Shown here piece after piece: positions 2,080 to 52,500 of a stretch of DNA of 64,000 nucleotides. Under the pieces are notes generated by a model. That model ran no database searches. It worked only from the letters and a program-made list of their open reading frames with translations, and was not told the DNA's origin. The translations under genes and the position numbers were made by a program. Origin of the DNA: Capitulum mitella (Eukaryota > Arthropoda > Thecostraca > Pollicipedomorpha > Pollicipedidae); the NCBI GenBank assembly GCA_030062745.1, contig CP099854.1:16631337-16695336 (forward strand), in the 5' to 3' direction. Positions within the stretch are counted from its first letter, which is position 1, and every line of letters begins with the position of its first letter.

Positions 2080-3898
2080 TTAATCCTATTCCCGGAGGGC
2101 TAGACGGTATGGCCGATTCCCGGCAGGGGGGAGGCGGATTCAGCCGCCCCTGAGATCTCGAGAACTACTCATCCGATTTCATCGCAACAAACGGCAATCG
2201 ATTTGCCATGACGTAAACTACACATAAAAAAAAAACCTTCCAAAATTTTGAAACGGGTGGATACAGGGGGCAAAAAGTCAGAAAGGGGGATATTTTTGGA
2301 CACCTAATAATTCCGTTGTTTATGGACTGATTTTGATGAAACTGGCATGAATCGAGAGAATATGGATAGGACTTTTACCATTGGTGCAAATATTTGAAAT
2401 TTTGGAAAAATTCATGAGCGTCCACAGGGTTTTAAGAATAGGAGAATTAATTTTCTAATAACTGAATGAACAAAAAAGGTAAAAACACTTTTTGGCTTCT
2501 GCTAGTCATGTTATGCTAAAGAAGTGCAGATCGTATTACAATGTTTGTACAATGTTAACATAGGCGGTGTCAGGGACATGAAAAAGGGGTAACTGCCATG
2601 GTCACATGTTCTTCAGATCAACTTGTGACATTTGACCCTAAATGACCTCCAGTTACCCTGGAGTCACTTGGAATGATCTCGTGTGCATCTAATATTATTC
2701 GAAAACGTTTTCAATTATTTTAGTTTGCTCTATTACAAAAATTCCATTTTACGGCTATTGTGATGTACGATCTTAAATATGCGATCACAACCGCCGGGCG
2801 GACCAACTTACCTCCGCTGGTTCGAATAAATAGCTAAAGGAGAAGGCAAAAGTAACAAAGGGAATAAAGAGGTAGGGATAAGCCCTAAAAATAGTCAAAG
2901 TCAGTCAAAAATCAGGGCTGGTGAGATTACGGAAGAATGAAAGACAAAAAGGCTAAAGAAAGGCAAAGTTCCGTCTCACGAACTACTCCTCACCGCACCA
3001 GAGCACCACCATCCACAATCCCACAACGCCCGCAACGAGCTCACGAGGCCAAGTGCCATTGGTCTGGAAGGTCCAGTTTGATGTTAACTCAGGTCAAGGT
3101 TGGGTCAAGGTCAGCGATCAGAGATGAAAATTATACCTTCCATTATGAAAAGAAACATTGGAAAGCTAAACCAAACCTCAAATTAATTATTTTAATGATT
3201 ATCTTTTTCACTGTTTTGCCTTGGAAACCGAAAATTTTGCTTTTATTGTACCATATGTTTCTCCAATAGATCGACAACAAAATACAAATGCGACGCGCCT
3301 CCCCAACCCACTACTAGACTACAGCCATTACAAGTCTAGCTTCTTGGGACGCCTGATGTTCCTGCCACTTCTTGTCTGTTTTTCCACAATGTATGTTTGA
3401 TGTGATGCTCGGTACGCGCACTGACATGATAACAGGCTGAACCTGATACACCAGTACAGGGCACCCTTCTCCGTCATTTTCATTCCACGTTTAACATTTG
3501 AAAAATAGTGCCAAAATTATGCCTGTAAAAGCAAATTTTGACTTTTGACCTTGACCTGGCCTTTTAAAGTGACCTCAGATAAACAAAATTGTATTTGTGT
3601 GTTTCCCACTATTCAGCTATATATCCATATAAAGTTTTAGGTTTTATCTTAAAAACGCTGTTTTTGGCAGTCATTTTCCTTTTGCCCTGAATAGGGCCAA
3701 AAATGGCCTGAGGTGCGTCCTAAAAACGTTCCTGGCTCCAATCCTGAGCAAAATGGAATTTCGAAAGCTTTGTCACAGTACGTAGACAGAATAGCTAGGA
3801 AAAGTGACCAAGTTTCGTGAAGCTGCATCACAAAGTCTGGAATTGGCAAGCAAAAAACCCGAAGGGGGATTCAACCCCCCTGCCGGGAATAGGGTTAA
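2080..3898 (+). mobile_element. TTAA MITE family 1, copy 1 (interrupted)
   Basis: Starts TTAATCCTATTCCCGG and ends with the inverted form CCGGGAATAGGGTTAA, so both ends show TTAA. It is homologous along its length to the elements at 41440-42645 and 52024-53178. The TTAA ends and CCC start fit the piggyBac superfamily; no transposase is encoded, so it is nonautonomous. The interior is rich in TGACCT. A 635-bp block absent from the sister copies interrupts it. Confidence 0.85.
2766..3407. mobile_element. Nested insertion inside the MITE
   Basis: Compared with the two sister MITEs, bases 2766-3400 are extra. They are flanked by TGTGATG at 2759-2765 and again at 3401-3407, a 7-bp direct duplication. 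The insert has no obvious inverted termini, no coding domain and no poly-A end. Its class is unknown. Confidence 0.6.
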
Positions 3899-5794
3899 TA
3901 TATAAATATTTGTACTTGCTGTATTTTAAAGTGATTTGCCTCGCCCAAAGTGTTTGTTTTGCTAACTTTCTGCATCTGCATTTGCATTTTTGCATTTGCT
4001 AACCTTCCGCATTTCTGCGTTACTTACATTGGGCTCTTGCGCAGACGTAATATTCGTGTAGCTGGTTTAAATTTTTATTGTGGCTACGTGGTATGTATAA
4101 TATGTGGCTATGACCAAACGTGAAGAAGGCGCTACCATTTCTTAGGGTAGGGCACTGGGACTACTCTGCGATGAACACCAGTACACCACACCAGTATACA
4201 CCAATATGCACCAGTATACAGTACACCAGTATATACCGGGTCTCACGTAACGACCGTGGGGTAGGCGAGCGAGACGGCGATAGCGATGCTTTTCGCCCCC
4301 CAGTGACGAGCTCGGCCGACGATTCACTGCGGAAGGTACAGCGGCGCAGGCGGTGCGAAAAGTTGGCTGGTGTCGTCATTGCGTATTTTTACATTAAACT
4401 GTCGGCTATTAGGAACATCAACACATCACGTCGCTGGTTAAAACTGTATTCTGTTCCAGGGAAGGGTTAGTCTGATGAAGTTTAAAAAGGGAATGCATAA
4501 AATGGAAACAAACATACACACAACCAGTCTGGCCTGTGCGAGGCGCGTACCTCGCTAGAAGTGCATGTTCTAGAGGGGGTTCCAAGTCCGGAATGGGCGC
4601 ATGGTCTGTAGAGTGGGCGCCAAATACACAATGGGTTCCTGATCTGTACTGGGACGCCTAACCTGTAACGGGCGCGTGTTTCGAAGACGTGTCTGGTCTA
4701 TGAGGGAAGACGAATTCCTAGGCATCTCATCTGCACGAGAAGAGGGGTCGCCTGGACTTAAAGGGGCGACGAGCTCATGAGGGATACCTGACCAGCGCGA
4801 GAGCGCTTACCTGCAAGGGGCGCCGTGTCCACAAGGAGTTGATGATCATTACATGGGGAGATGAAGCCTGGAGGCTGATGGTTGCTAAGGAAAAAAAGCT
4901 CCCCTCAGGAAAAATGAAATGAAGTGAAACAGAAAATAAAATAAAGAAGGAGAAGACACGCATTTTGGCGTCTCTTTGCGATGGAGTTCCAGACACAATT
5001 TTCATTCTTCTTCGAAGCCCATACACTCTTCTTTGCTGTGACATAAAGGGGCGACCGCACCATGGGCCAGAAAACGGAGGGCGGGGGGGGGACGTTTCCC
5101 CCATCCCCCGGCAATGACACCTATGGTTTAGGGATATCATTTTAAGCTTCGGTGGCGCACCTTCAGGCCTGGGGAGGGGCGCACTTTCAGGTCTCTAGGG
5201 TCATATATGTAGCCAGCCAATAACCAACGGGTCGAAAGGTGCGAATCCGAAAGGGAAAGGGGCTAGGGAGCCATAGATTTTTGAAATGCGTCGCAAAATC
5301 CAATAAAAGTAGGCAAAATATATAAAGACAACGATCAGTAAAACAAAGCAAGGGTCACGCGATTCCTAAAGGCATCCCAATATCGTAAAAATATTCAGAA
5401 TTCAATTAAGCCATTCAAAAAATACTGAAAAACAACGGCGGGAGGGGGTCAAATCCACCCATCCGTGACGAGGTGGGTTAAAAGGCCACTCCCTCCACTT
5501 CAACTTAGGGCCAATTTCCTTGAACAGGGATCTCGGTCCGAGCAAAAGATCCCTGTTTGAGTCGAAAATGTCCCTTGCCTAACGGGAACGATTTTGAATG
5601 TTCAGGGGTAAGAATCCTCTTGGAAACTTTGTGTCTTTCTTAAAGTCTCGCGGGCCCATTTGAAAGTTTAAAATCCCCAAAAATTTCGCGGGCCTGCCCA
5701 AAGTTTGGAACTGCGCTGGAAGCTCAGATCGCCTTGAAAAGTCCAGAAGTCGTTTTGGAGGCTTAGGTACCCTCCTGAACGACCAGAACCTCTT
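3899..5794. other. No gene; simple repeat and a MITE-like terminus
   Basis: Holds a CACCAGTATA-type simple repeat at about 4178-4240. A MITE-like right end lies near 5440-5479, with a G-run, then CATCCGTGACGAGG, then GGGTTAA. Its left partner was not located. The remaining frames look like chance. Confidence 0.45.
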
Positions 5795-26429: not shown

Positions 26430-29400
26430 GAGTGGTAGTATTAATATTGTTTTTACTATTATTAGTTATTGATTTTCATTAGTTATATTTTACATACCAC
26501 GTGTCTGATATAGATATAATATTTGTATGTTACATATAATTTATTTTGATTTACATATACATACATAATGATACGTGCTATCGTGTCTTAGATAAACGTA
26601 TATTATAAGCAACAGCAGTATGCGTATTTGTTCTGCATCATTATGCATATGCATCTTTCATCTTATGCTCGAATCTGCTGGAGATCATGGTAAATGATAG
26701 AATGTTGAGCGGGATGCAGTCTTGGGGCGTTGCAGGACAAACCGACACGGCACCTACCAACATGAGCGCACCATAGTCTCAAATTGTGATGAAATTTGGG
26801 CGGATGGGTAATCTGTGGGTGGGATTTCATTTTTTTCACTTCTTAGTTCGGTCGAACTAGCGGTTTTTATGCTACAGCAATTTTGAATAGTGAGATGTGA
26901 TGATTTTTGGTCCAACGCTTGGTGAAATAATGTGTAGTATTTCCGTAACCAATGAACATATTTTAGAAAACTGGGTATCGTTGCGATGAGAACAAAAATT
27001 TGCATCGTTTTGCTATTGGCATTTTCCAAAATATCTTTTTGTTTTTATATGACCTTTGCACTTATTTTCTAGGTCAAGTTTTGAAAGTGTGTCCAGTGAT
27101 TCCGTCTGAAAACTTAAACAGGACAGCATTTCGTCCTCATTAAAACGATATCCAATTTTTGAAAATGTGACTATTGGCTACTGAAATAATGCACATTATT
27201 TGCATATATGCATATATATGCGCATATTATGTAAAAATCATCGGATTTAGAAATTTCAGATTGCTCTAGCGCAGAAACCGTTTGTCAGACGAAGCTCAGA
27301 AGTGGAAATCGGGCATCCCAGCCACAGATTACCCCCTGAACAAAATTTCCTTACAATTTGAGACTAGGGTGTGGTACCCCGTAATCAGTCTCGCGCGGAA
27401 TTCCCCTCTTACTTACATTTCTTCGTATGAGTCTGCAAACCGACCGTGTGCCAGCACCTCTGGGCACCCACATAAGTAACGGGGAACGCTTCATGTACTG
27501 GTGTTTGCGTACTATGGAAACCTGCCACAGGAACCTGGACAGCACCGGTAGATCTTGACTCTCGCTAGCCTCGTAGCTACTAAGGCTACCCATCGTTGGT
27601 TGCTGTCCCCTGGCAAAACAATGCCTGCTCACACGAACAGGGTCCGACTGCCGTTAACAAACGCACGTGTCTCGAGAGAGGGCTGGGTTTTTTCAGATTC
27701 CGGCTTCCGGAGCTGGACCAACAAGTGTCATGGCTGACTCTGACTCACGGTCGCGCCGCGTTCCTTGAACACGCCACCCCTTGACCCGCAGGCTGTGCAC
27801 GCTGACGAAGGCGTACGGCAAGACGTACAGTACGGAAGCCGCCAAGCTGTGGCTGGCGAGGTGTGCGCCAGCCCAGGCCCCGGCCGTCGCGGCCACCACA
27901 GCCGCGTCGCCCACCGTGCCAACACGCACTGCCCCGAGCGCGCCGACAAGTCCTCCCGCCGGCGCGCGGAGGCCGTCCGTTCCCGGCGGGGGGCGGCGAG
28001 GGGGGCGGCGGGGGGACACCCGACCGACCGCCTCCCCGCCCGCCGTGGCCGCCCAGTCGCCTGGGACGGGAGGCCGGCCGAGCCCACCCAGGGCGCCCCC
28101 ACCAGGGCCCCCACTGCCGCCGGATGTCGGTGGCGGCGCGGACAACCTCACCAAAATAATCAGTGAGTGGGCTGCGCTGCGTTCGGCGTCAAGGCGGGGC
28201 GGTCCGTGAGTCGAGGGCGTCTCGCCTGCTGACGGGGTCGTCACGAGCACTCGTGAGTCACGACAGCTGCTTGCTCTTACGAGACCTCGATGGTCGCTGA
28301 GTTGAGGCTTCTCCCCCACTGCTGAGGTGCGGAGCCGGGATCACCATGACAACCGGTAAGTTCTGAGAGCTACGTGTCTTAACGTCACCGGGATATCGAA
28401 TGAGGGCGCCTCATCTGAGACAGACCATCAGGATCACCTGCAAATTGAGACGGCTGCCTTCGGTTACGTTACCAGGTTGGGTCGAGAGCCGAGGGCATCA
28501 CCCGCGTACCAACACCACCAGGATTGTCTGTCAGTCAAGGACATCACTTGGATAACATCACAGTTTATCTGGTGCATAACCCAACAGGCTCACTTGGGCA
28601 AGATGTTAGCAATGCTATCAGTGTGTCAGGACCGTGTGTTGCAGCGCTCTTGGCGAAATCTGCACGTGGCAAGGTTATGCTGGTGGAGGAACATCGAGTG
28701 TACTCCCGCTGACCAAAACCCCTACCCCTGAGTCCTGAGTCGGTGGAGTGATAGCCGCGTTTATTTCTCCTGCCGGCAGAGCCATAGCTATGTCCTTCCT
28801 CTCTTCTGACGGAGTCTCTGCTGAGACAAGTTTGCCGAGAGTGCCATTGTTGAGTCTTTCCTCTTTGTCTGAGGAATCACTACCGAGTCTCGTCTCTCTG
28901 CCTGTCGGGTTACCACCGAGTCCTGTCCCTCTGCCGGAGGATCCATTGCCGAATTCTTCTCCCCTGCCGGATGAGTCATTGCTGAGTTGCTGAGTCGTGT
29001 TTCTCTGCCGGAGGGGTCCCTACCGAGTCTCGTCCCTCTGTCTGCAGCCGCGAACCTGACCACCAGCTGTTCCGAAGTCGATGAGCTCCTGCTTCCGAGC
29101 GGCCTTCGTCAACGGCGGGCCAGTGATAGCAGCAGGTGAGCCGTCATGGTCCGTAGGTCGGGCCAGTGATGGCAGCAGGTGAGTCGTCATGGTCCGTAGG
29201 TCGGGCCAGTGATAGCAGCAGGTGAGTCGTCATGGTCCGTAGGTCGGGCCAGTGATAGCAGCAGGTGAGTCGTCATGGTCCGTAGGTCGGGCCAGTGATA
29301 GCAGCAGGTGAGTCGTCATGGTCCGTAGGTCGGGCCAGTGATAGCAGCAGGTGAGCCGTCATGGTCCGTAGGTCGGGCCAGTGATAGCAGCAGGTGAGCC

Positions 29401-32400
29401 GTCATGGTCCGTAGGTCGGGCCAGTGATAGCAGCAGGTGAGTCGTCATGGTCCGTAGGTCGGGCCAGTGATAGCAGCAGGTGAGCCGTCATGGTCCGTAG
29501 GTCGGGCCAGTGATAGCAGCAGGTGAGCCGTCATGGTCCGTAGGTCGGGCCAGTGATAGCAGCAGGTGAGCCGTCATGGTCCGTAGGTCGGGCCAGTGAT
29601 AGCAGCAGGTGAGCCGTCATGGTCCGTAGGTCGGGCCAGTGATAGCAGCAGGTGAGTCGTCATGGTCCGTAGGTCGGGCCAGTGATGGCAGCAGGTGGGT
29701 CGTCATGGTCCGTAGGTCGGGCCAGTGATGGCAGCAGGTGAGCCGTCATGGTCCGTAGGTCGGGCCAGTGATAGCAGCAGGTGAGCCGTCATGGTCCGTA
29801 GGTCGGGCCAGTGATAGCAGCAGGTGAGCCGTCATGGTCCGTAGGTCGGGCCAGTGATAGCAGCAGGTGAGCCGTCATGGTCCGTAGGTCGGGCCAGTGA
29901 TGGCAGCAGGTGAGCCGTCATGGTCCGTAGGTCGGGCCAGTGATGGCAGGATGCAGCAGGTGAGCCGTCATGGTCCGTAGGTCGGGCCAGTGATAGCAGC
30001 AGGTGAGCCGTCATGGTCCGTAGGTCGGGCCAGTGATAGCAGCAGGTGAGTCGTCATGGTCCGTAGGTCGGGCCAGTGATGGCAGCAGGTGAGCCGTCAT
30101 GGTCCGTAGGTCGGGCCAGTGATAGCAGCAGGTGAGTCGTCATGGTCCGTAGGTCGGGCCAGTGATAGCAGCAGGTGAGTCGTCATGGTCCGTAGGTCGG
30201 GCCAGTGATAGCAGCAGGTGAGTCGTCATGGTCCGTAGGTCGGGCCAGTGATAGCAGCAGGTGAGTCGTCATGGTCCGTAGGTCGGGCCAGTGATGCAGC
30301 AGGTGAGTCATGTCCTAGGTCGGGCCAGTGATAGCAGCAGGTGAGTCGTCATGGTCCGTAGGTCGGGCCAGTGATGGCAGCAGGTGAGCCGTCGGCGGGC
30401 CAGTGATGCAGCAGGTGAGCCGTCATGGTCCGTAGGTCGGGCCAGTGATGGCAGCAGGTGAGCCGTCATGGTCCGTAGGTCGGGCCAGTGATAGCAGCAG
30501 GTGAGCCGTCATGGTCCGTAGGTCGGGCCAGTGATGGCAGCAGGTGAGCCGTCATGGTCCGTAGGTCGGGCCAGTGATGGCAGCAGGTGAGCCGTCATGA
30601 TCCGTAGGTCGGGCCAGTGATAGCAGCAGATGAGCCGTCATGGTCCGTAGGTCGGGCCAGTGATAGCAGCAGGTGAGTCGTCATGGTCCGTAGGTCGGGC
30701 CAGTGATAGCAGCAGGTGAGTCATCATGGTCCGTAGGTCGGGCCAGTGATAGCAGCAGGTGAGCCGTCATGGTCCGTAGGTCGGGCCAGTGATAGCAGCA
30801 GGTGAGCCGTCATGGTCCGTAGGTCGGGCCAGTGATCATTGTGATCGGGCCGCCTATCATTCCCTCACCTTACCTGACACCTGGGTCACTCAGTTGCCTC
30901 TTCCTGCAGTGGACCCTTCAACCGTCAGCCTGACCGACGTCAGGGGCGGAAACGATGACTTCGGCTGGACTGGTCAATCAGCTGTCATCAGTGGCATCTC
31001 CCAGTACAGGGTGGACAACGTCAGGTCAGGTCAGACAAGATAGACAGCGTCAGGTTACAACCGGTACAAGGTGGAGGTCAGGTGAGATATCCAATGCAGA
31101 TTACCGGTAGAATCCAGCAGAAACATTTGTTGAACACCAGGACTCGGTGCTTACTTTCTTCAGCGAGATTCATGGACATCACAGAACTGCCCGATTTCAT
31201 AACATCATAACATCATCGTAACATTTCGTAAGATCGGTTTCAAAGCAGTCTGACCTTTGGGATCTTTGGTTGGTTTTGGGTTTCGGGGCGCGCATTGTCA
31301 TAAATGACGGTAACGCGCTCCTTCCTGGAGGCTCCTGTATGACGAACCGCGTTTCTAAACGCATGTGATTTTATTTCGCATTTTGCTTTAGTGCTCCGAT
31401 CTTGTGGAATGTTTTTACGTCCGACAGAAGAGGTGAAATACTTGGTAAATAATCATTCTGTTCTGCTCATGAACGGCGCACCAGTGTTCTTCTGGAGCGC
31501 ACAAGAGACGTTATGCCACATGCTTTTCAATTTCTTTAGAGAGAATGTCCTTTTCGAGTCACGATCCTTGGGTGGCCAGTAGAGCCTTTTGAAACCAAGA
31601 CTACTTTGATATGAACCGAGCTTTTGACTATGCCGATGCATCGCTAGGAAAATTACAGTCAGCAGATTTTGCGGTGGCGTGCGATACCTTTCGAACGGTG
31701 CACGACACGTGCCGATCCGCCAATCCATTTGGGTCCTGGACCGCAGCAAAGATCTGTCAACAGGAAGAGAGAAAGACAGAGATGACTCAAACAGCGTATA
31801 AATTTCTGCAGCTTGGTAAAAGCAAGCCGGGAAATCTGTGGCATATTTCAGGGATGCGCCTCTATTTTACAGCTGACTGCGGTCTGAACGGAATGAGCTG
31901 GTGTTGCTGCTGCGAAAAATATGTCGCCGAAATTATTCATGTGTTCGATAACGTTTCGGTGCCACCTATACCCACATCTTAACAACGTTTGCGTCCTACA
32001 GCTGGGAAGCCTAAAACAGTGATATGCGAGAGGAACACGCGCGGATTACTAAAGTTGCACTGATGAAATAATGAATGAAGGATATGAGCAATGAGAAGTG
32101 GAAGAGAAAAGAATTTATAAATGTACTGGAGTAAAAAGGCGAATAAAAAATGGTCATTGCCTTTTCGGAGAATGCTGGATGGCGAATACAAAACGGCGAC
32201 ATGTAAAAATGGCGACAAGCTAAAATGACGATCGGCCAAATGGCGAATGGCCAAAAGGCGACATGTAAAAAAGGCGACTTACCGAATTGGCGGCCGGCTA
32301 AATGGCGAATGGCCAAATGGCGAAGCGTGAAAAAGGCTACATATCAAAATGGCGAACGGCCGAATGGCAACATGTAAAAAATCAACATGTTAAAATGCCG

Positions 32401-49595: not shown

Positions 49596-52500
49596 GTTAA
49601 GTTGATCTGTGGTTTCACAGCCCGTTCGACAGTGCGCCGAACTAGTAAACTGGGGTGTGAAGTCACGGGTCAAACAAATGCATAAATTTGACAGAGACGC
49701 CAAATTAGAGGGATCAAACATTTGGGGAGGCCAGACGACGCTGCAGACGAGCCGAGACGGGATTTTTGCATTCATGGACCAATATAAAAGTACGCCGCGC
49801 CGGATTTTTTTACTTGCACGTTCTATAGCACCAGCATTGGGACAGTTGTATGGAAATGAACGAAGCCCAAACGAAAGCCCCGTATGTTTGTTCTGACATG
49901 ATCAAATACCACTGAATAAGGTCAGAAATGATCTATGCTGATTCCCGGGCTTCATGCATGACTTAGGCAAGACAAAATGCGGAACTCAAAGTCCTGGAAT
50001 CGTTTCACGTTCGCAAATTTCGTCCATCTCTTAACGCACATGCTACGTCTTTGTGTATATTTGAGTTTACGGAAAATGGGATTATGATATCGCATTCTTT
50101 TTTATCCATCTTCTTGCTCTTACTGAACTGTTTGTGAATGGGCAAAATACATGACAGGCTCTAGAATGCGGAGGACAACTCTATTATTTATCTGTAGTGT
50201 TCTCTCCTCGTTCATATCAATGACTGATAATGACAGTTAATTGGATAAAAAATGGAGCGTCCAAATAAATAAAGTATCCTTGGTTGTGCCGATTTACATT
50301 GCTGAAATTGATTTATTTCCGCATTTCCCTGTTAATGTTGGTGTCTGCAGCTCCGAAGCTGGTTCTTTTGACTGACTGACTGAAGTTAGTTCTTTTCGCG
50401 TAGCATTTACAAATGCTACGCGTGCTGTAGGATTTGTAATTTTGGAACTTCAGTTTGTATCATTTCTGAAGATGTTCTATGGCTGTAGCGTTGAGTCTGT
50501 TAACATCTTCAGTAAACGTGGTAAACTGTGCATTTTTTTGCGTGTTAACCAAAGTCTCTCCTGACATAAAGAAGGGTGTATGTTTCCATAATCTTGATCA
50601 AAGATGATCCACTTTTCACACTCGAGAAAAATAAAGATGAAAAAACTGCCTTCCGTTTGGTACAGGTTGTAGAAAGAAAAGAAAAGAAACATCACCAAGA
50701 TAAAGGAATATCAGAAAAGATGGTATGCAGCAGAAACTGTGTGTGAGTGCAGTACACCTTTTTGTGATGGCTTTTTCACAGCCTGCGCGCAGCGAAATCA
50801 GTCTTTTCATCTTTGTTCTTCTTGTCTAAGAAGTAACTTCACAGCGTTATTTGGCCAAAACAAAATATAGCACCAATTATAATAGCGCGCTTTATACCAT
50901 GTTCCTTCCGCGAATGGGAAGAAAATCCCGAGTGTCATAAAACGACGACTCGGTCAATGCGTTTCCATTTCATGTAAGACGTGCTACGGCCCAGGGTACC
51001 CCTAACCCGGCAAAGGGTCAGGCCAGGTCAGGTCATTCCTCGCACCAGGAATGGGCGGTGTTTGAAACCACCCTCACCTATCTCCAGGTACGATCCAGAG
51101 AAGATGAAACAGCTGGCCTCCGATGCCGCCGACGAGATAAAACAGGATGCCATCAAGATGGTTTCACCGCGGGTCAGGATAGTGTGCCAGGTCAGAACAG
51201 AATGTCAGGATACTCTGTCAGGTGGGAACAGAATATAATGATAAGGTGCGAGATACGAACAGAATATAATGATGAGGTGCGAGATGCGAACAGAATGTCG
51301 GAACGCTGTGCCAGATCGGAACAGAATGCCAGGAAAATGTGCCAGGCCAGAAAAGAATGCCAGGAAAATGTGCCAGGGGTAACAGGGTGTCAGGGCAGTG
51401 TGCCAGGTGGGAGCAAGATGTCAGAATAGGGTGCCATGCGGGAACAGAAAGTAGGGATAGCGTGAAAGGCATGTGTTTACAGAATGTCAGGACAGTGTGA
51501 TATGTGGAAGCAGAATCCCAGGATAGCCTGCCAGGGAGGGGACGAATGCTAGGATACTGTGGTTTGTGGGAAGAGTGTGTCTGCATAGTGCATCGGGTGG
51601 AGACAGAATGTCCGAATAGCAGGTAAGGTGGAAACGGAATGCCCGAATAGCGTGCCAAGTAATAGCAGAATGTGAGGTGGATGGACGGGTGCGAGGACGG
51701 GAGGGAGTGGAACTGGTAGGTTTTGAGACGATTTTGCCATGTAACACCATGGGATTAATGATCAGTTTGGAGAAAGGTCAGGAGCAGCATGGGTGTTCCC
51801 CTGTCCTTGAATCTTTTCTTTAAAGATCCCCACGAAATAACACGCCCGGAAAGAGCACCCCTGAAACCGTCTCGGGGCATGCAGGAGATGACGACTAGGA
51901 TAACAGGCATTGTAACAACTAAACAGAGCAAACGTTTTAGTTTTAATGATGGAAAATGCAGGAAAGTCGCCCCTCATCAAAAGTAGATCAAATGTGCCTT
52001 AAGGAAAGGGTGAACATCCTAGCTTAACCCTATTCCCGGAGGGCTAGACGGTATGGCCGATTCCCGGCAGGGGGGTCGGCCCCCTAGATCTGAGAATATT
52101 ATCCGATTTCATCGCAACAAACGGCAATCCATTTGCCGTGACGTGAACTACATTTTTATAAAAAGAAATTTTCAAAATTTTGAAATTTGTGGATACAGGG
52201 GGAAAAAATGTCAAAATGGGGGTACTTTTTGACTTCTTATAACTCCGTTGTTTATGGACCGATTTCGATGAAACTGGCATGAATCGAGAGATTATGAATA
52301 GGGCTTTTACCATGGGTATGCAAATTTGAAATTTTGAGAGAATTCATGGGCGTTCACAGGGTTTCAAAAATAGGAGGATTAGTTTTCCAATAACGGAATG
52401 AACAAAAGAGGCCAAAACACTTTTTTAGCTTCTGCTAGTCATGTTCTGCGAAAGAAGTACAAATCGCATTACAATGTTTGTATAATGTTAGCATAGGCGG

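Follow-up and report, generated by a model that had tools for sequence, protein, structure and literature searches.

Minisatellite-like tandem duplications that extend across an exon-intron boundary have been described in amphioxus, where these 'mirages' occur in Adh3, the globin genes BflGb6 and BflGb9 and TnC, with similar repeats in PGBD5, and many of their units carry AG/GT signals; the Adh3 unit measures 10-72 bp, and mirages are reported not to disturb splicing (PMC3087553, PMC3902484). Here we describe a 43-bp minisatellite from the barnacle Capitulum mitella in which almost every unit contains a strong 5' splice site (donor). The array lies in a window of 64,000 nucleotides (GenBank assembly GCA_030062745.1, contig CP099854.1, positions 16,631,337 to 16,695,336 of the forward strand; coordinates given without a contig are positions in this window). 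At a probability of roughly 0.7, we read it as the product of tandem duplication of an exon-intron junction, with the first donor used, the others functionless, and the locus one member of a genome-wide class. By analogy, this class most likely works in the way of the amphioxus mirages.

Like the mirages, the barnacle array is tandem, has a unit of minisatellite size (43 bp x 40.3) and contains splice signals in 38 of 40 units. That it may span a boundary, as mirages do, is suggested by frame continuity and by a junction present in single copy at a paralogous locus (L013), although its exons have no family match and the third-position bias of their substitutions is weak; boundary spanning is better supported at L046, L048, L050 and L051, elsewhere in the genome. 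Mirages are known from a handful of cephalochordate genes and affect both boundaries, whereas the arrays reported here are from an arthropod, occur at dozens of loci, mostly involve GTGAGT donors and were counted against a control motif.

Three other systems are comparable in part. Tandem genomic duplication of AGGT-bearing segments creates splice signals and is described as an accepted way in which introns are gained (PMC3443670). It resembles the present case in that tandem duplication yields extra splice signals, but in the published account an exonic segment is duplicated to give a new intron, whereas in the barnacle it is a junction that has been multiplied, and the intron, if real, seemingly predates the array. 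Human segmentally duplicated genes are reported to contain variable internal tandem repeats with units averaging 30 bp, the number of which can alter exon-intron structure (PMC2812944). As in the barnacle, copy number differs between young paralogues and exon-intron boundaries are possible sites; the human repeats average about 4 copies, are half coding and were found by paralogue comparison rather than through splice signals. A minisatellite of C. elegans has been linked to alternative splicing, acting as a motif rather than as a donor (PMC4039745). The leading matches of a literature search included none that described boundary minisatellites in barnacles or other arthropods, and the word 'splice' is absent from a survey of tandem repeats in Daphnia (PMC3152781).

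The array and the probable exon in which it begins

Tandem Repeats Finder (TRF) places the array at 29116-30836 on the forward strand (period 43, 40.3 copies, 95% matches, score 3057). Anchor-based cutting yields 40 units, 36 with the full 43 bp and the other four with 50, 42, 37 and 32 bp; CAGGT is kept in 39 and CAGGTGAG, the CAG/GTGAG donor, in 38, the two units with an altered donor starting at 29676 and 30611. These figures bear out an earlier note on this DNA, made from the sequence alone, which had described about 40 near-identical 43-bp units with a near-perfect donor in almost every one. A full unit consists of 20 nt derived from the exon and 23 nt derived from the intron, joined at a CAG/GTGAG[CT] donor.

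The same note had placed the array inside an intron, which is right for most of it but not for the first unit: a probable exon ends about 20 nt into it (donor GT at 29136), so that this unit would comprise 20 nt of exon and 23 nt of intron. This upstream exon (29049-29135, forward strand) has an open frame that ends GGPVIAA at the first CAG/GT (29135/29136) and resumes in frame from 30910 into VDPSTVSLTDVRGGNDDFGWTG. Its start is uncertain, since an annotated-looking acceptor at 29048 is in frame conflict with the open frame from 29066. The first donor, CAG/GTGAGC (29133-29141), is attached to the probable exon; the remainder of the intron after the array (30837-30909) ends in the acceptor TTCCTGCAG/TGG, and the probable downstream exon (VDPSTVSLTDVRGGNDDFGWTGQSAVISGISQYRVDNV), recognised by frame continuity, occupies 30910-31022, its end being uncertain. 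Splicing from donor 2 would shift the frame, and from donors 3-6 or the last two of the 39 sites a TGA would be read inside the repeat. Use of the first donor is thus expected, as it is the only tested donor that preserves the frame.

Variation among the units does not spare the donor. The note had stated that the donor core is almost untouched by variation; a per-position comparison gives the opposite result. Counting the 36 units of 43 bp only, with the four units of other sizes excluded, the varying columns relative to the junction are -8 (28 A, 8 G), +1, +4, +6 (21 C, 15 T), +8 and +14, which amounts to 3 of 9 columns in the core and 3 of 34 in the remainder (Fisher p 0.09). Non-consensus bases occupy 17 of 324 cells in the core vs 10 of 1224 in the remainder, and the most variable base of the array, the C/T at donor position +6, itself lies within the donor. 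A cyclic alignment of all 40 units agrees that the core is more variable (20/360 vs 26/1359, odds ratio 3.0).

Several other features of the window touch on this setting. A degenerate 33-bp pyrimidine-rich repeat (28852-29044, forward strand; 5.6 copies and 58% matches under relaxed TRF settings) ends shortly upstream of the probable acceptor at 29048. At 51088-51561 a diverged 31-bp array (12.5 copies, 69% matches) begins at about the end of a short probable exon (YDPEKMKQLASDAADEIKQDAIKMVS...) and is perhaps a second, older boundary array. The note had called the gene TULIP-like, an assignment that found no backing in our searches: none of the 23 matches to JHBP in the genome (14 of them over the cut-off), a family biased to arthropods, falls in the window, and the joined exons are without a match, as detailed below. 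The gene could possibly be a diverged TULIP member. The G+C content of 4-kb stretches in the window ranges from 0.42 to 0.58. Elsewhere in the assembly, a CCTAA-type repeat run begins contig C10, the only such end among 20 contig ends read; the arthropod telomere repeat is TTAGG.

The paralogous locus

One other copy of the region was found, L013, 240 kb away on the opposite strand. Identity is 87% in the two longest stretches of the alignment and 74-86% in the others. L013 carries the junction CCAGTGATGGCAGCAG/GTGAGTC once, diverging soon afterwards, and CCAGTGATGGCAGCAGGTGAG is likewise present once. The remaining 18 nt of the unit, which derive from the intron, occur neither in L013 nor in the rest of the window. 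In this single assembly the junction unit thus occurs once in L013 and 40 times in the array of the window. Between the junction of L013 and the next conserved block lie 1.9 kb of unrelated sequence, without the array. The single-copy junction, together with the exon/intron split of the first unit, makes it likely that the array grew from a duplicated junction, and the same junction, with the genome-wide excess of donor arrays (some at recognised exons), supports the suggestion in the earlier note that the repeat was seeded by a splice donor. The comparison also suggests that the intron in the window, if real, would be older than the array, though the acceptor is lost from L013.

The boundaries on either side differ between the copies as well. 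In L013 (read in its own and the gene's orientation) a 33/99-bp pyrimidine-rich array before the preceding acceptor (2977-3327) is well preserved, while its counterpart in the window is degenerate; at the next exon boundary (5465-5600, same orientation) L013 has a 31 bp x 4.2 array, of which no more than degenerate traces are present in the window. Arrays at neighbouring boundaries are therefore well formed in one copy and degenerate in the other, which indicates that boundary arrays differ strongly between the copies and turn over between duplicates. A GC-rich segment of the window at 27767-28036 has just 4 substitutions in 270 bp relative to the paralogue (flanks about 10-20%), which has a 12-bp insertion there; the low divergence reflects either recent gene conversion or strong constraint.

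Donor-bearing arrays across the genome

Over the whole genome, CAGGTRAGT occurs in pairs spaced 12-41 nt 163 times and a reversed control motif 14 times, while the single copies of the two are equal in number (6124 and 6165); about 1.2 pairs would be expected by chance. The excess per motif copy is 11.7-fold, a figure in which pairs inside one array are not independent of each other. By hand count, the 100 CAGGTRAGT pairs listed represent 39 loci, two of which are duplicates of one another. These pairs reach C12:11.5 Mb, or about 79% of the genome, and the control can have no more than 14 loci genome-wide, so that the excess at the level of loci is at least nearly threefold. Little or no excess was found at short spacing (0-10 nt; second half only CAGGTG; 29 vs 21) or at a fixed spacing of 15 nt with CAGGT as the second half (16 vs 10). 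Save for the one duplicate pair, unit sequences are unlike between loci, which argues against a single spreading repeat. Only a minor fraction of the minisatellites in this genome carry donors, given that a 267-kb sample contained 39 non-overlapping arrays with periods of 21-50 and the donor-like motif [CA]AGGT[AG]AG occurred in none of them. Periods divisible by 3 are not in excess (15 of 38 array loci, about 12.7 expected).

Twenty loci have two or more listed pairs; we read 18 of these, all but the segmental duplicate C6:6633480 and C7:27503604. A recognisable protein-coding exon precedes the first donor in four of the 18. The match to a mitochondrial phenylalanine-tRNA ligase exon at L048 runs to within 1 residue of the donor (E 1.2e-5), that to a MAGI PDZ exon at L050 to within 3 residues (E 6.9e-12, PDB search), that to a PDZ exon at L046 to within 7 residues (E 1.7e-5) and that to a VPS9 exon at L051 to within 17 residues in the same open frame (E 4.4e-6). 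Pfam was run on ten of the 18 loci and the PDB sequence search on five; six of the ten tested loci gave no meaningful match in whichever search was run, and L051 gave none in the PDB search. By eye, the sequence upstream of L053, L054 and L056 looks coding. The array after the MAGI exon occurs twice, at C6:6607092-6607209 and C6:6633480-6633597, 26 kb apart and with identical listed donor pairs; this doubling is a segmental or assembly duplication. At L051 (C7:25258568-25259804, minus strand) about 22 units of 33 bp come after the VPS9-domain exon, whose frame stays open for 223 codons beyond the first donor, across the array.

For comparison, 40 sites with a single copy were taken consecutively, starting on C1; a codon score exceeded 2 at 4 of them and at 7 of the 18 arrays (p 0.025). 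The result is weak, since five of the seven passing arrays are training exons (each left out of its own scoring) and L052 is a repeat extending upstream; the score, trained on 448 codons, is also crude, giving -5.0 to the MAGI exon of L050 that the PDB search recognised. Exon-side homology between the first donor and the next extends over 12-32 nt in 16 of the 18 loci (4 in L042, more than 98 in L052) and is 20 nt in the window.

The arrays are unevenly spread over donor types. By hand count, 94 of the 100 listed CAGGTRAGT pairs are pure GTGAGT, 3 are pure GTAAGT and 3 mixed, whereas the first 100 single copies comprise 64 GTGAGT and 36 GTAAGT; loci with GTAAGT only make up 3 of the 39 listed, below the expectation from the single-copy share (p 5e-5). 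Pairs of AAGGTGAGT are also more frequent than in the control (13 vs 1), from six loci, one of which supplies eight of the 13. A very regular 39-bp array with AAG/GTGAGT donors and eight listed pairs is found at C1:5575097-5575417. Either GTGAGT itself promotes duplication or GTGAGT donors lie in GC-rich surroundings prone to minisatellites.

Weighing the explanations

In the favoured reading, events would have begun with tandem duplication of a segment spanning the junction (20 nt of exon and 23 nt of intron), followed by growth to about 40 copies through ordinary minisatellite turnover, presumably slippage or unequal exchange. Splicing would use the first, exon-attached donor, and the other 37 intact donors would be carried in the intron as passengers without a dedicated function; the genome would contain dozens of GTGAGT-type donors at which the same process has acted. 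That the extra donors are inert is, judged from sequence, the most likely state: donors in the window are not protected, periods that are multiples of three are not favoured and mirages are reported to be spliced normally, all of which agrees with passengers.

Some observations weigh against this reading. Relative to the window, L013 has a 1-bp insertion or deletion (indel) in the first exon and a 7-bp indel with loss of the acceptor AG in the second, conserved as both otherwise are, and the bias of exon substitutions to third positions is weak (11 of 21, p 0.056). The 62 joined exon residues have no match in Pfam (up to E 10) or in a PDB sequence search. By eye, no coding sequence lies upstream at L041, L042 and L043. 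Pairs of AAGGTAAGT are not in excess (8 vs 11 in the control), so array formation does not extend to every strong donor.

The frame-breaking indels and the missing family match would suit an ordinary minisatellite that resembles a donor by chance, beside exons that are unreal or belong to a dead gene, and minisatellites are common enough here (the 39 arrays of the 267-kb sample). None of those 39 has the donor-like motif, however, donor pairs are 11.7-fold above the control, and the array starts within the final 20 nt of a probable exon; we consider such a coincidence improbable. Another explanation accepts the junction but has several of the repeat donors in use, with an exon of variable length and an array that gives rise to new introns or coding sequence. 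The open VPS9 frame through the 33-bp array of L051 speaks for it, and tandem duplication of AGGT segments offers an accepted precedent for new introns (PMC3443670); downstream donors at some loci, L051 among them, could give longer proteins. In the window, where the earlier note had raised variable exon definition, the later donors shift the frame (donor 2) or lead to a stop (the other later donors tested), and only 15 of 38 loci have periods that are multiples of three, which leaves this a very small chance.

Lower still is the chance that the array is a functional decoy or sink for the U1 small nuclear ribonucleoprotein, or a splicing enhancer, with its donor cores under selection. Intact donors in 38 of 40 units would fit such a role, and in 11 other arrays, pooled, core mismatches are slightly fewer than those in the remainder (79/936 vs 261/2336, p 0.02). 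Those arrays were selected for intact donors, however, a bias that remains when three intact units are dropped from each, and the array of the window is more variable in the core than in the remaining unit. Beyond that slight and biased difference the decoy or sink proposed in the earlier note gained no positive support, and one of the refuting observations that the note had named, a core no less variable than its surroundings, is what the window presents.

A broader extension of junction duplication is tentative. GTGAGT donors of this genome may be hotspots of minisatellite birth, owing to the junction sequence or to transcription or splicing across it, with the first of several to forty donors chosen and some genes, such as that at L051, gaining in-frame repeats for new coding sequence or introns.

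Boundary minisatellites at dozens of loci in an arthropod, about 12-fold over the control for each copy of the motif and chiefly at GTGAGT, would show that the phenomenon is not a cephalochordate oddity. The collection of arrays also forms a natural test of how the spliceosome chooses among near-identical 5' splice sites in vivo, and it bears on why tandem duplication begins at exon-intron junctions and how such repeats arise.

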